From NCBI RefSeq assembly GCF_028689305.1, contig NZ_JAQTWM010000024.1, positions 1 to 45,388 of the forward strand: DNA of 45,388 bases, written 5' to 3'. This stretch comes from Rhodoferax sp. GTDB taxonomy: Bacteria > Pseudomonadota > Gammaproteobacteria > Burkholderiales > Burkholderiaceae_C. A program made the position numbers and the translations under genes. Of the stretch, positions 15,380 through 19,109 are shown in pieces (within the stretch, counting starts at the first letter, position 1; each line of letters begins with the position of its first letter). The notes beneath the pieces were generated by a model, which worked only from the letters and a program-made list of their open reading frames with translations, was not told where the DNA came from and searched no databases.

Positions 15380-15742
15380 ATGCGTACGGATATGTTTCAG
15401 CATTCGTTGGAAGACCTTAACGGGTCAACCGCGGACATTGAGGCCTCGGCCCTGATTTCAACGGATGGTTTGATGATTGCATCGGCTCTACCGCAGGGAA
15501 TGGATGAGGACCGTATTGGCGCCATGTCTGCTGCCCTGTTGTCCCTTGGCGAACGCACGGCTCGCGAATTGGCGCGAGGAAAACTGGAGCGTGTGTTGAT
15601 TCAGGGTGAGCGCGGTTATGTGATCATGAGCGCAGCCGGTCCTGAAGCGGTGTTGACGGTTCTGGCCAAATCCAACGCCAAACTGGGCCTGATTTTCCTG
15701 GATATCAAGCGTGCGGCCGAAACGCTGTCTAAATTGATTTGA
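15380..15742 (+). CDS. Roadblock/LC7-domain protein, first gene of the six-gene operon
   Basis: The protein is a single 120-residue Roadblock/LC7 domain: IEASALISTDGLMIASALP is the first strand pair, DRIGAMSAALLSLGERTARE the long helix, and GYVIMSAAGPEAVLTVLAKS with LGLIFLDIKRAAETL the C-terminal strands and helix. Roadblock proteins form dimers and often regulate small Ras-like GTPases (for example MglB acts on MglA), but no GTPase gene is in the window. AGGAGA six bases before the ATG makes a strong ribosome binding site. A 124-base gap precedes it, in which TAATAT at 15297-15302 is only a weak -10 candidate. It opens a compact operon of uncharacterised signalling proteins. Confidence 0.9.
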   Translation: MRTDMFQHSLEDLNGSTADIEASALISTDGLMIASALPQGMDEDRIGAMSAALLSLGERTARELARGKLERVLIQGERGYVIMSAAGPEAVLTVLAKSNAKLGLIFLDIKRAAETLSKLI

Positions 15743-15753
15743 TGGAGGTCCGT

Positions 15754-16248
15754 ATGGGTCTTACAGATATGTCTTTGCCTGCAGTTCCTTCGACAGGCTA
15801 CACGCTGACCTACACCGATGGTACGTCGCGTCAGGTCTATGCGACTGAATTGGAAGTACCGTTTCCTTTGGGTCGCCTGATTGTTTCCCGCACGGATTTG
15901 GCCGGCGTCATCACACATGCCAACGACGCTTTTGTCGAAATGAGCGGGTATTCTCGGGATGAGCTGATTGGCTCGCCGCACCATATTCTTCGTCACCCGG
16001 ATATGCCCAAGATAGCTTTCAAGGGGCTGTGGGAGGACTTGAAGGCCGGGAAAAAATGGCACGGTTATGTCAAGAACCTGCGTAAAGATGGTGCCTATTA
16101 CTGGGTTTATGCGACGGCAGTCCCCAATATTCGCAATGGGGTCATCGTGGGCTACACATCGGTTCGCCGTAAGCCATCGCGTACCCGGGTCAACGAATTG
16201 ATTCCGCTTTATCAACAGTGGCTGGCGCAGGAGAGGGCAGCAACATGA
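15754..16248 (+). CDS. Free-standing Aer-type PAS domain protein
   Basis: This 164-residue protein is essentially one PAS domain with no membrane segment and no methyl-accepting or kinase domain. It resembles the FAD-binding PAS of the aerotaxis receptor Aer: RHPDMPK at residues 80-86, Trp93 in GLWEDL, Trp102 in KKWHGYVKNLRKDG, and YYWVYATAVP. The spacing between Arg80, Trp93 and Trp102 equals that of Arg57, Trp70 and Trp79 of Aer as I remember it, and His81 and Asp83 match Aer His58 and Asp60. It may therefore bind FAD and sense redox state or oxygen. GGAGG five bases before the ATG at 15754 fixes the start. It follows the Roadblock gene by 11 bases and overlaps the next gene. Confidence 0.88.
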   Translation: MGLTDMSLPAVPSTGYTLTYTDGTSRQVYATELEVPFPLGRLIVSRTDLAGVITHANDAFVEMSGYSRDELIGSPHHILRHPDMPKIAFKGLWEDLKAGKKWHGYVKNLRKDGAYYWVYATAVPNIRNGVIVGYTSVRRKPSRTRVNELIPLYQQWLAQERAAT

Positions 16249-16994
16249 CACTTCAATTTTTGATTGCCCCTGATTTCTCCCCTGATCGTTTTGCTGGCTG
16301 GCACATGCTCAATACCGTGCTGCAGCGGCGCTCCGGTATCCATTTGCACTTGGTGACGCCGGTTAGTGCACAGGAGCAGGCCGATGCCTTGGCTGCTGGG
16401 CAGGCTGACATCGTTTATGCCAATCCGTTTGACGCCACAGACATGATTCGGTCGATGGGGTATATCCCCTTTGCCCGCCCGGCGCAACGTTATGATGAGA
16501 TGGTGATTGCAACGGGTGCAGAGTCAGGACTGAAAAGTCTTGAAGAACTCAAGCCGGGCTGCAGGATTGCCCTGACCGACAACCGGGACGTCAAATTGAT
16601 CGGCCTGCGTTTGCTGGAGCCGGCGGATCTTGCTGAATCGTTGATTGAGTGGGTCCAGGTGGATAGTTACCAGGCGGCTGCCCGGAAAGCCATCAAGGGT
16701 GAAGTGGACGCGGCCTTCTTTCTGGCGGATGCCTTTGCCTCGTTGACGCGTATTTCACGAGCTCAACTGCATGTGCTGGTTGAAAGTGCCATCAGCGATA
16801 TTTCGCACGTTTTATTGGCTCATCCCCGCGTCATATCTGATTTGCCTGCTATCAAAAATGCTTTTGTGGAGATCGGGAAAATGCCTGGCGACAACGACTT
16901 GTTGGAAGCGCTGGGTTTGCCCAAGGGGTTTGAATCCCTGAGTCAGGAACAGGCCGAATTCATGATTGACCTCATGGACACGTTGTTGGACTGA
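16245..16994 (+). CDS. PhnD-like periplasmic-binding-protein fold without a signal peptide
   Basis: The 249-residue protein has the type 2 binding-protein fold of the phosphate/phosphonate PhnD family: it opens with LQFLIAPDFSPDRFAGWHML, and has QADALAAGQADIVYANPFDA, the hinge region CRIALTDNRDVKLIGLRLLE and the second lobe IKGEVDAAFFLADAF. Normal PhnD proteins are exported, but this one starts directly in the first strand with no hydrophobic leader, so it should stay in the cytoplasm. No ABC permease or ATPase is adjacent, so it is more likely a ligand sensor than a transport component. The start at 16245 overlaps the PAS stop (ATGA); GGAGAGG lies eight bases upstream. The ligand is unknown. 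Confidence 0.8.
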   Translation: MTLQFLIAPDFSPDRFAGWHMLNTVLQRRSGIHLHLVTPVSAQEQADALAAGQADIVYANPFDATDMIRSMGYIPFARPAQRYDEMVIATGAESGLKSLEELKPGCRIALTDNRDVKLIGLRLLEPADLAESLIEWVQVDSYQAAARKAIKGEVDAAFFLADAFASLTRISRAQLHVLVESAISDISHVLLAHPRVISDLPAIKNAFVEIGKMPGDNDLLEALGLPKGFESLSQEQAEFMIDLMDTLLD

Positions 16995-17005
16995 GGCCTG
17001 TTTTC

Positions 17006-17593
17006 ATGGATCAAACCCCTGAACAGATGGAGCGGCTGGCGCGCAGGACCATGCGTCGTCATGCTCGGTTCTTGAAACAGAACGTTCTGGACACGCGTGT
17101 TCATTCGGCACGACTTGACGCAGCACTGCTGTTGCCGGGGGCCGAGCCTGTCCAGGGGGCTTTGGCAGATCTGTTTGCCAGTGTTGGTGCCGAGCAAGCC
17201 CAATTCAAGCGTGATGCGTTGAGTCTTGCCAGGGAGCGTCTGGCTCCTCATGTGTCGAGTTGGTTTGAATCACAAATTGACGCACCTGTACTGCCACGCA
17301 TCACTCCACTGGCAACACGCTGGAGTGTGCTGGCCATTCCGTCTGCAGACATTTCCACTCGGGCGCGTCGCTGCAGCGTGGACGATTCGCGTGCATTGGC
17401 CGCTCAGGTGATTGATGCTGTCGCGCAGGGTGATGCCCAAGGTGAACAGTTGTTTTTGCATCATTGTGTGACCTGTCATGACAACTTGGCGTTCATGCTG
17501 GCCAGACGGGCTTTGCTGAAAGCCAATACGCGCCTGCCACCCGGCTGGGATACGGTGAGTCAGCAACTAGAACAAGCCATGCAAGTCGTATGA
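17006..17593 (+). CDS. Unknown protein with a CxxCH motif, operon member
   Basis: I do not recognise this 195-residue protein. It is mostly helical, begins with a basic stretch (MERLARRTMRRHARFLKQNV), and has no signal peptide or membrane segment. Near the C-terminus HHCVTCHDN gives His152-His153-Cys154-x-x-Cys157-His158, formally a CxxCH motif. Covalent haem attachment needs export to the periplasm, which is not visible here, so a metal or redox-active Cys pair is as likely. The gene lies 11 bases after the PhnD-like gene and overlaps the next one by four bases, so it belongs to the same operon and presumably the same complex or pathway. Confidence 0.7.
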   Translation: MDQTPEQMERLARRTMRRHARFLKQNVLDTRVHSARLDAALLLPGAEPVQGALADLFASVGAEQAQFKRDALSLARERLAPHVSSWFESQIDAPVLPRITPLATRWSVLAIPSADISTRARRCSVDDSRALAAQVIDAVAQGDAQGEQLFLHHCVTCHDNLAFMLARRALLKANTRLPPGWDTVSQQLEQAMQVV

Positions 17594-18495
17594 AGGTGAT
17601 TCTGTCGGGTTTTTCCCAACGAGATGGGTTGGTGTTTGACATGTTTTTAAAGCGCTCCTTGCCGACTTGGAGGTGGCAAAGTGTGCCTCCCGGTCGCGAC
17701 AGCGCCTTTCCTGAGGCAGATCTTTTGATCGTTGACCTTGCTGCTTGTGGCTGGGCTCAGTATTCGGAGTTGGCACAAGCGCGGTTGATGGCTGCAACAG
17801 CTGGCCAAGTAGCGATTCTGCTGGTGTCAGCACAGGACCGGTCGTGGAGTCAAAAGTTGCCTGCTGATCAGCATACCCTTTGGATCTGGCTGGCCAAGCC
17901 TTACGGCAGTCAGGGGATGCTCCGAGCGCTGAAGCAGGCAGAAGTCCTGTGCCAGAACCGACGAGCGCCGAGCCGAGATCAAAATTCAGTCCCAATGGGA
18001 GTGGGCACGTCGTTGGCGAGACAAACACAGCCGCCCGAGGCAGAGCAGGGTGTGGCGGCTGTCAGCCCTGCGCCAACCGGTCAGCAGGTCAAACCTCAGG
18101 TTCCGGCGGTCAGTGCCCCTGTGCCTGAATTCAGTCTTGTGGAGCTGGCAGCCCGGCTTGACCGTTTGCCGGTTGATCGGTTTTTGCTGCTCAGAAAATT
18201 GCTGACCGGTTTGCGGCAGAAGCAACCGTTCGAGATCCGGTTTACTGTCCAACATTTCCTGATTGTCCATCCTGTGGATGGCTGGGTGGCCAGCAACACA
18301 CCGATCAAGGTCATCATGCAGGTCTGTACCAGTGATACCTTGGCGCGCTCTGTGTCGGTGCGGGAAATGACGGTTGACCAGACGGAAGCGCGTCTACTGC
18401 AACTGGGGATGACGCCACAGGAACTCAATGCCTTTTTGTTAGACATCGTGACGGCAACGCTACCCCCGTCAATTAACATGGACACTGGCTCATGA
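17590..18495 (+). CDS. Pseudo-receiver protein with an unknown C-terminal domain
   Basis: Residues 1-120 look like a response-regulator receiver domain: Asp49 in LLIVDLAACG is at the phospho-acceptor place, Ser80 in ILLVSAQD at the Thr/Ser place and Lys103-Pro104 in LAKPYG at the conserved Lys. The spacing (31 and 23 residues) is close to CheY. The acidic pair that binds magnesium at the end of strand 1 is missing (VILSGFSQRDG), so phosphorylation may not occur. A proline- and glutamine-rich linker (about 125-180) leads to a C-terminal domain I do not recognise (residues 185-300, with FEIRFTVQHFLIVHP). There is no obvious DNA-binding or enzymatic output domain. It overlaps both neighbours by four bases. 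Confidence 0.7.
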   Translation: MKVILSGFSQRDGLVFDMFLKRSLPTWRWQSVPPGRDSAFPEADLLIVDLAACGWAQYSELAQARLMAATAGQVAILLVSAQDRSWSQKLPADQHTLWIWLAKPYGSQGMLRALKQAEVLCQNRRAPSRDQNSVPMGVGTSLARQTQPPEAEQGVAAVSPAPTGQQVKPQVPAVSAPVPEFSLVELAARLDRLPVDRFLLLRKLLTGLRQKQPFEIRFTVQHFLIVHPVDGWVASNTPIKVIMQVCTSDTLARSVSVREMTVDQTEARLLQLGMTPQELNAFLLDIVTATLPPSINMDTGS

Positions 18496-19109
18496 ATAAC
18501 GCCTCGCCTGAATGGTTTACTCTGACGCCACAGGGCGTTATGCGCGCTTTCGGTCAGCCGGAAGTGGATGCCGTGTCCAGAAAACTGCAGGTTTTGCTCA
18601 CGGGAGAGCAGGCACTGGATGCGATGGGGTGGTCGCAGAAGTCGGGCATCGATGCATCCGAAATGCTGGAATTCGAGACGCAAGGTTGGGTTCAGCGTTT
18701 GCTGCGGCCTTTGCAGGGGCCTGACGCCCGGCTGGACGATTTCTTGCAACATGTGATTGCTTCTTTGTCCAGCGAGCGGCGTGTTGTGCTGGCGTCTGAC
18801 GGTGGCTTCTGTCTGGGGCGGGCAGGTATCGAACAGGAAGAAGCGGATGTGCTGAGTGCTGCGGCAGCGGACTATGCCGCATTTGCCGCACGCCAAGCAC
18901 GGCGGGGTTGGGCGGGTGCGTCAGGTTATGTTGCCTTTCATACCGACCCGGAGTTCCTGCTGCCCAGCTATTCCTTTGTTCCGTTTTGGGTCGACGAGGC
19001 AGGCTATTGGCTGGTGATCCTGGGCGAACCCCTGCTCAACAGCCCCGCCTTGGTTGAGCTGTTGTGGGGCATCAAGGAGGCTGGGACCCGCTTTGCCGTC
19101 AGCGGCTGA
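18492..19109 (+). CDS. Roadblock-like C-terminal domain protein, last gene of the operon
   Basis: The 205-residue product has an N-terminal helical part (residues 1-90) that I do not recognise, and a C-terminal part that reads like a divergent Roadblock/LC7 domain: RRVVLASDGGFCLGRAGIEQ matches the first strand pair (compare ALISTDGLMIAS in the first gene), DVLSAAAADYAAFAARQA the long helix, and FVPFWVDEAGYWLVILGEP the later strands. A second Roadblock-type protein in the same operon suggests heterodimers. The gene overlaps its predecessor by four bases and ends 20 bases before the convergent bamC gene. The domain call is from pattern only. Confidence 0.65.
   Translation: MNNASPEWFTLTPQGVMRAFGQPEVDAVSRKLQVLLTGEQALDAMGWSQKSGIDASEMLEFETQGWVQRLLRPLQGPDARLDDFLQHVIASLSSERRVVLASDGGFCLGRAGIEQEEADVLSAAAADYAAFAARQARRGWAGASGYVAFHTDPEFLLPSYSFVPFWVDEAGYWLVILGEPLLNSPALVELLWGIKEAGTRFAVSG

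Follow-up and report, generated by a model that had tools for sequence, protein, structure and literature searches.

Roadblock family proteins form dimers, and they are read almost everywhere as partners of GTPases. In the Group 3 MglA systems of beta- and gamma-Proteobacteria, the GTPase MglA is found together with one or two Roadblock proteins (MglBs) and a protein with a receiver-like N-terminus, a variable linker and a winged-helix C-terminus (PMC4316618; Wuichet and Sogaard-Andersen 2014). The Group 3 set has been described by bioinformatics; a role in transcription control has been proposed from the winged helix (PMC4316618). Orphan MglBs also exist, and among those with conservon genes at their flanks many have been attributed to mglA loss (PMC4316618). 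Described here is a six-gene operon, A to F, in a 45,388-nucleotide stretch of Rhodoferax sp. DNA ("the window"), which is contig 55 of a 3.83 Mb metagenome-assembled genome (MAG; G000) that is 86.5% complete. Its identity as a relative of the Group 3 Mgl systems is well supported. On balance, and with little to spare over doubt, we take it to be a derived Group 3 system without its GTPase, in which flavin adenine dinucleotide (FAD) redox sensing and ligand sensing on a Roadblock platform tune type-IV-pilus behaviour; this mechanism and output are what we infer.

Like Group 3, the window has a Roadblock protein (A), a Roadblock-like protein (F) and a receiver-linker protein (E), and relatives of the operon hold a Ras-like GTPase between E and F. 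Unlike Group 3, it has no coupled GTPase and no C-terminal region in E, and its genes run A-B-C-D-E-F. It also adds a PAS protein (B) and a PhnD-like protein (C); "PAS" and "phosphonate" have 0 occurrences in the main text of PMC4316618. Neither a PAS or PhnD association nor GTPase-less Group 3 operons appeared in the literature searched (an open-access collection, by chosen terms, in titles). The first-pass annotation of this stretch knew of no described system with such a set of genes; its GTPase, Roadblock and receiver/winged-helix core is described, as the Group 3 MglA systems (PMC4316618). That annotation also considered that homologous operons might already be described with a function; this holds only in part, as the description is a bioinformatic one and covers little of the function.

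Table 1. Genes of the operon, with positions in the window (aa, amino acids)
Gene	Position	Strand	Product
A	15380..15742	+	Roadblock/LC7 (MglB-like), 120 aa; Pfam Robl_LC7 3.8e-18
B	15754..16248	+	Soluble Aer-type PAS, predicted FAD binder, 164 aa; Pfam PAS_3 9.3e-17
C	16245..16994	+	Cytosolic PhnD/phosphonate-binding fold, 249 aa; Pfam Phosphonate-bd 3.5e-40
D	17006..17593	+	All-helical, possibly TPR-like, 195 aa; AlphaFold pLDDT 91
E	17590..18495	+	Receiver-like N-domain, linker and middle domain, 301 aa; lacks the C-terminal domain and basic amphipathic tail seen in relatives
F	18492..19109	+	Divergent second Roadblock-like (MglB-1-like), N-terminal extension, 205 aa

The six frames are all open, with intergenic spacings from A to F of +11, -4, +11, -4 and -4. 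These coordinates confirm the two 11-base gaps and three four-base overlaps between co-directional genes reported in the first pass. Its naming of A as Roadblock, B as Aer-type PAS and C as a PhnD fold agrees with the Pfam matches and with Aer being the best solved relative of B, and C has no hydrophobic N-terminal stretch, as expected from its description as a protein without an export signal. D, E and F match no Pfam family above cut-off. None of the six proteins matches an NCBIfam equivalog above cut-off, and no kinase was found among them in the Pfam and NCBIfam scans.

Evidence for the loss of a GTPase is provided by the relatives, here cited by locus (L) or genome (G) number. The named loci are the best 80 of 123 from a genome-collection scan with C, so the presence of C among them is not independent evidence. 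The class-wide loci come from a sample in which 57 of 369 genomes carry Roadblock A (E <= 1e-8); 40 of the 41 strong places outside the window's own genome were fetched, the missing one being in G311. Of the 76 named loci that span D to F, 26 have a GTPase gene between E and F (L081, L083, L103 and L113 have no complete D-F stretch and are not counted). In Ottowia, Vandammella, Moraxella and others, this intervening protein has 173-190 amino acids. A GTPase also lies near A in 33 of the 40 class-wide loci, in 29 cases with the order GTPase-F-A; the matches in L211 and L212, which are among the 33, are weak. In Pfam the protein matches ATP_bind_1 best and Ras-type GTPase models next, and its profile matches 428 PDB sequences at E <= 0.001, Rab and Ras chains included (best 2.7e-9). 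Judged by these matches, it is a Ras-superfamily GTPase. Its putative place in the MglA family follows from its coupling to Roadblock genes, by which PMC4316618 defines the family, and from the architecture.

In the window E and F overlap by four bases, so no GTPase lies between them and no remnant of one is left. The GTPase profile found nothing in the window's MAG, in a complete genome of the same genus (G121), or in G123, G050, G131, G025, G516, G521, G522 and G523, of which G516 and G523 are Psychrobacter. All 4 positive controls (G520, G518, G004, G517) were matched. Because relatives carry the gene between E and F, its absence from the window copy is, on this comparison of loci, a secondary, derived loss. 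The cytoplasmic multi-input signalling set without a visible GTPase that the first pass described fits the window. Loss as one event was rejected, since a quick tree (no bootstrap, long branches) gives 7 changes when L083, truncated at the end of its contig, is counted as GTPase-bearing, and 8 otherwise. About six GTPase-less lineages are seen on that tree.

A GTPase is still present at L075:12270-12806 (Rhodoferax ferrireducens OTU1), where E is truncated; no other member of the Rhodoferax/Polaromonas clade has one. This GTPase sits on a long branch (0.68), as expected for a gene losing its role, in a single case. Further GTPase/Roadblock loci occur in the window's family at L144:5784-9234 and L141:4691-9660. 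L144 includes a stand-alone protein of 141 amino acids that matches helix-turn-helix families below threshold and has a basic tail similar to the C-terminus of E. Near L141 lie a protein of receiver-like appearance and one with weak 7TM/GGDEF matches.

Of 50 named loci without the GTPase, 49 lack the C-terminal domain of E, whereas 58 of the 60 loci with the GTPase have it. Across 114 of 120 rows (L081, L103, L113, L196, L198 and L200 excluded), 58 loci have both GTPase and E C-terminus, 49 have neither, 2 have the GTPase only (L075, L197) and 5 the E C-terminus only. In most GTPase-bearing loci E has 366-558 amino acids, one exception being a frame of 270 in L090, and the protein usually closes with a basic amphipathic tail, for example GFFKSLLDKLF. 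A shared tail of this kind would fit a protein attached to the membrane better than one that binds DNA freely. In the window's clade E ends after the middle domain, at 268-327 amino acids (alignment A6, with the L050 protein excluded). No E was found in 25 of 26 Psychrobacter loci, nor in L102, L104, L105, L066 and L069. L104 comes from a record titled Streptomyces cinereus JCM 3040; its operon is Moraxellaceae-like, with 44% GC, and is probably contamination.

The full-length E of relative L087 gives an AlphaFold model with a confidence (pLDDT) of 83 and a receiver-like N-domain. Its best Foldseek matches are receiver domains (E 1.5e-3, probability 1.00), with none at E <= 0.001. The pseudo-receiver assignment of the first pass is therefore upheld through the relative's model, the protein modelled not being the window's own. 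Of the receiver, linker and winged helix of the Group 3 protein, the window E has the N-domain and linker and not the C-terminal domain; the winged-helix label is that of PMC4316618.

Across 11 aligned homologues, the Roadblock A is 82-97% identical in nine operon relatives, 68% in L051 and 93% in the paralogue of its own genome (L052), and its PDB relatives include CvnB5 and MglB. In nine GTPase-less pairs, the ratio of nonsynonymous to synonymous substitution rates (dN/dS) of A is 0-0.04, the lowest of any gene in 8 of the 9, and the values for B, C, D and F are all under 0.4. E has the highest ratio in 4 of the 5 pairs where it is comparable. In four GTPase-bearing pairs A is equally constrained (0-0.031). 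Pairs of the window with a relative are mostly saturated at silent sites. Roadblock A is under very strong purifying selection in GTPase-less lineages. That it stays constrained without the GTPase is the most telling observation, since some other partner must then exist.

In relatives, the GTPase gene is followed by F. Of its family, 13 of 27 members match Robl_LC7 below threshold (best 0.0017), as do 6 of another 7 F proteins. No such match was found for the F of the window, and a profile-profile comparison of A with F gives a probability of about 4%, which is not significant. The second Roadblock-like protein of the first pass is thus backed by sub-threshold matches in homologues and not by the window's protein itself. 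Counted against the one or two MglB/Roadblock proteins of Group 3, A is a strong member and F a sub-threshold one in homologues. L042 and L062, from the G008 MAG, have an internal TGA in F, through sequencing error or decay, and were left out of the F alignments.

The closest solved relative of B is Aer (PDB, 1.5e-36). In Aer, H53, R57, W70, N85 and R115 contact FAD, and G at position 28 stabilises flavin binding in an engineered form (PMC9668731). Among 80 B sequences, 79 keep R57, W70 and N85, the remaining one being truncated in that region; R115 is likewise kept in 79, and H53 in 67, with Q in 12; the G at position 28 is native in 79. The window B has all five contacts, as H76, R80, W93, N108 and R138. 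It is in this respect like the E. coli Aer PAS (PDB 8dik; PMC9668731), and unlike Aer it is free-standing and soluble, has no HAMP or signalling domain, and differs at positions 27 and 69.

For C, no solved relative was matched by profile at E <= 0.01. The marks of PhnD-type transport are missing, as there is neither a hydrophobic N-terminus nor a widely recurring neighbour family among 29 representative loci. The AlphaFold model of D is helical, and in Foldseek it finds many TPR and other helical-repeat proteins, all weakly and none better than E 0.35. A divergent D homologue in L051 has sub-threshold TPR matches, and no TPR family stands in the table for 31 aligned D proteins. Its modelled fold is TPR-like at best. 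The first pass had labelled D a CxxCH protein; the motif occurs in just 24 of 79 homologues, with only the first Cys invariant across the 31 aligned, and D as a haem protein was ruled out on that count.

The operon recurs in relatives, and its gene set is not a chance grouping. The order A-B-C-D-(E)-F is found in 71 of 71 named loci having open frames for A, B, C, D and F, although in L125 and L140, within that count, the A frame is only a piece. The first pass had allowed that the genes might not co-occur elsewhere, and a unique orphan system is ruled out by this recurrence and by the class-wide loci. Hosts of the named loci (best 80 of 123) include Rhodoferax, Polaromonas, Tibeticola, Ottowia, Vandammella, Variovorax, Accumulibacter, Moraxella, Psychrobacter, a Neisseriaceae MAG and others, so that the operon belongs to Comamonadaceae and relatives, Moraxellaceae and a few other groups. 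The closest named relatives are Comamonadaceae/Burkholderiales records, which agrees with the beta- and gamma-proteobacterial hosts of Group 3. In the window's family, 12 of 150 genomes have F (own genome counted) and 21 of 150 have C (own genome and distant matches of 22-29% identity counted).

Class-wide, B and C accompany A in 14 of the 40 loci. The typical order there is D-E-GTPase-F-A(-B-C) versus A-B-C-D-E-F in the window, and the window order is, as read from the sequences, a permutation of it. In the window's own family, L051:7392-13727 (G058) has the order D-E-GTPase-F-A-B-C, with an insertion interrupting C; we take the open reading frame (ORF) in the insertion, from its appearance, to be transposase-like. 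At L044 (G050 contig 40) the operon holds D-E-F alone, with A, B and C missing at the locus.

Clustering of ORFs in the 29 representative loci, which records recurrence and leaves families unnamed, gave no widely recurring neighbour family outside the operon. The large clusters are operon genes or antisense and other-frame ORFs over them, and the remaining clusters span 4 loci. Since the flanks are not conserved across these representatives, the operon is a free-standing unit. In the window, a family scan of the upstream side found thioesterase-like and nitroreductase-like genes (Pfam) next to the operon, and nine genes of ordinary metabolic, transport or housekeeping families further upstream.

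An example of A, B and C apart from the rest can be found in Neisseriaceae, where 34 of 41 genomes have A-like proteins (E <= 1e-8). Of 16 fetched loci, 11 are an E-GTPase-F-A operon, 4 are a separate A' with B and C, and one is an orphan A' with neither B nor C. Because A'-B-C stands apart from the rest in some Neisseriaceae, the three genes A-B-C have the look of a sensor module that brings its own Roadblock, and an orphan MglB of A's family can travel with PAS and PhnD-like proteins. We suggest, tentatively and a little short of even confidence, that A-B-C works as a sensory platform independent of a GTPase, with a Roadblock dimer binding an FAD-redox PAS and a cytosolic PhnD-like ligand sensor, and that this platform is separable from the MglA switch, outlived the GTPase in several lineages and passes its signal on directly.

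The window's own genome has a second Roadblock at L052:8781-10111 (contig 89), 92.5% identical to A, together with a PhnD-like protein 57% identical to C. This pair has no PAS and faces an opposite-strand FIST-domain gene about 5 bases away.

Three further systems help to place the operon. In the bee symbiont Snodgrassella, the Group 3 mgl operon goes with a single mglA and three mglBs; one mglB is an orphan located far away from the operon, and a missense allele of that orphan altered spreading on 0.5% agar and competitive colonisation (PMC11112851). This orphan (mglB-3) is, like A'-B-C in some Neisseriaceae, a Group 3-associated Roadblock uncoupled from mglA; unlike the window lineage, in which no such GTPase was found, Snodgrassella has a complete mglA operon elsewhere in its genome (PMC11112851). 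The actinobacterial conservons (CvnA-D) likewise join a Roadblock, a small GTPase, a partner protein and a sensor in one operon, and CvnB5 is a relative of A; the window set has no CvnA-type histidine kinase, has a soluble PAS and a PhnD fold as its sensors, and has lost its GTPase. In the MglA/MglB/SgmX polarity module of Myxococcus (PMC7519303), a Roadblock protein belongs to a small-GTPase module tied to type IV pili, and D may be TPR-like as SgmX is; that module is Group 1 rather than Group 3, and D is short and at most putatively TPR-like.

The pilus gene pilM was detected in 17 of 20 operon genomes, and the three without it are MAGs 65-87% complete, the window's included. Class-wide, it occurs in 52 of 57 genomes with A and 230 of 312 without (Fisher p 0.0035), and with strict A orthologues in 37 of 40 versus 245 of 329 (p 0.0096), both uncorrected for phylogeny. 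The table was tallied by eye from match lists and recounted once. Type-IV-pilus surface behaviour is favoured because of this enrichment, the Snodgrassella phenotype and the general link of Mgl proteins to surface movement, and by analogy it would most likely be the output of the operon.

The proposed history is as follows. The ancestor would have had Roadblock A, PAS B, PhnD-like C, helical D, E with receiver and winged helix, Roadblock-like F and, in addition, a Ras-like (MglA) GTPase. The window lineage would have lost the GTPase together with the C-terminal domain and basic tail of E, and retained the rest. A may serve as a platform on which B reports the FAD redox state or respiration and C a small cytosolic ligand. 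D, E and F would connect this platform to its target, most likely type-IV-pilus surface behaviour. As there is no GTPase, the Roadblock complex itself must carry the signal, which would then pass without a GTP/GDP switch.

Several points weigh against this interpretation. No pilM was detected in the window's MAG, which is 86.5% complete; the pilM association is indirect, and type IV pili are very common. E is intact and the GTPase undetected in L082, L190, L203, L207 and L214. L075 has the GTPase with a truncated E, the sole true case of this kind, the missing E of L197 being due to a contig start. Among six independent pairs, co-loss of the GTPase and the E C-terminus agrees in 3, is opposed in 0 and is equal in 3 (median p 0.25, not significant). 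Among the 60 listed of the 428 PDB matches to the GTPase profile, MglA does not occur, and the MglA-family label is based on coupling and architecture. That F is Roadblock-like is suggested by its sub-threshold matches. FAD binding and redox response in B are predicted, as is a small ligand for C, and Aer positions 27 and 69 are not kept in B, the former being variable and the latter L in 78 of 80. In the Neisseriaceae locus L113, B and C are present without A adjoining. The Snodgrassella orphan mglB is a putative counterpart of A. The functional case for the GTPase-less copies is drawn from sequence.

The Roadblock proteins might still regulate a GTPase or other NTPase encoded elsewhere in the genome. 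This split arrangement is unlikely, even though regulating GTPases is what Roadblock proteins usually do, distant GTPase paralogues exist elsewhere in G063, G008 and G519, and bacteria hold many unrelated P-loop NTPases that a GTPase profile does not see. The G063 paralogue adjoins Roadblock-like genes of its own, and ten genomes, the complete G121 and the window's among them, have no match to the profile. The operon might instead be a remnant, functionless after GTPase loss and drifting towards its own. In most pairs E is the gene that evolves fastest, and it may be truncated or missing altogether; the F of the G008 MAG contains an internal stop, the Psychrobacter records L125 and L140 have A or D frames that look broken, and the interrupted C of G058 shows damage in a locus that still has its GTPase. 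Decay is nevertheless quite improbable given the open, tightly spaced frames of the window, the low dN/dS of A, B, C, D and F, and the order kept in 71 of 71 loci.

Transcription control through the winged helix of E, as PMC4316618 proposes, could in principle be fed by the PAS and PhnD-like sensors. That paper predicts receiver and winged-helix folds for the E-like protein, and the L087 model agrees for the receiver part. The window E, however, lacks the C-terminal region, E was not found in most Psychrobacter loci, and the amphipathic tail hints at a membrane, all of which makes such an output as doubtful as decay. An accessory role in aerotaxis or chemotaxis, acting on flagella through the Aer-like PAS, is the least probable of these explanations. 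It draws on the closeness of B to Aer; against it, no neighbour family recurs widely around the operon in the 29 representative loci, and the operon occurs in Moraxella and Psychrobacter, which are not known to have flagella.

If A-B-C is indeed a sensory platform independent of a GTPase, Roadblock/MglB proteins would be signalling hubs in their own right, and the persistence of "orphan" mglB genes would be explained. Natural lineages, one complete genome included, keep a strongly constrained Roadblock though no such Ras-like GTPase was found in them. For orphan MglB proteins, an FAD PAS and a PhnD-like binder can now be named as predicted partners, and their role thereby becomes directly testable. 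The PAS protein B and the PhnD-like protein C are candidate inputs for Group 3 Mgl systems.

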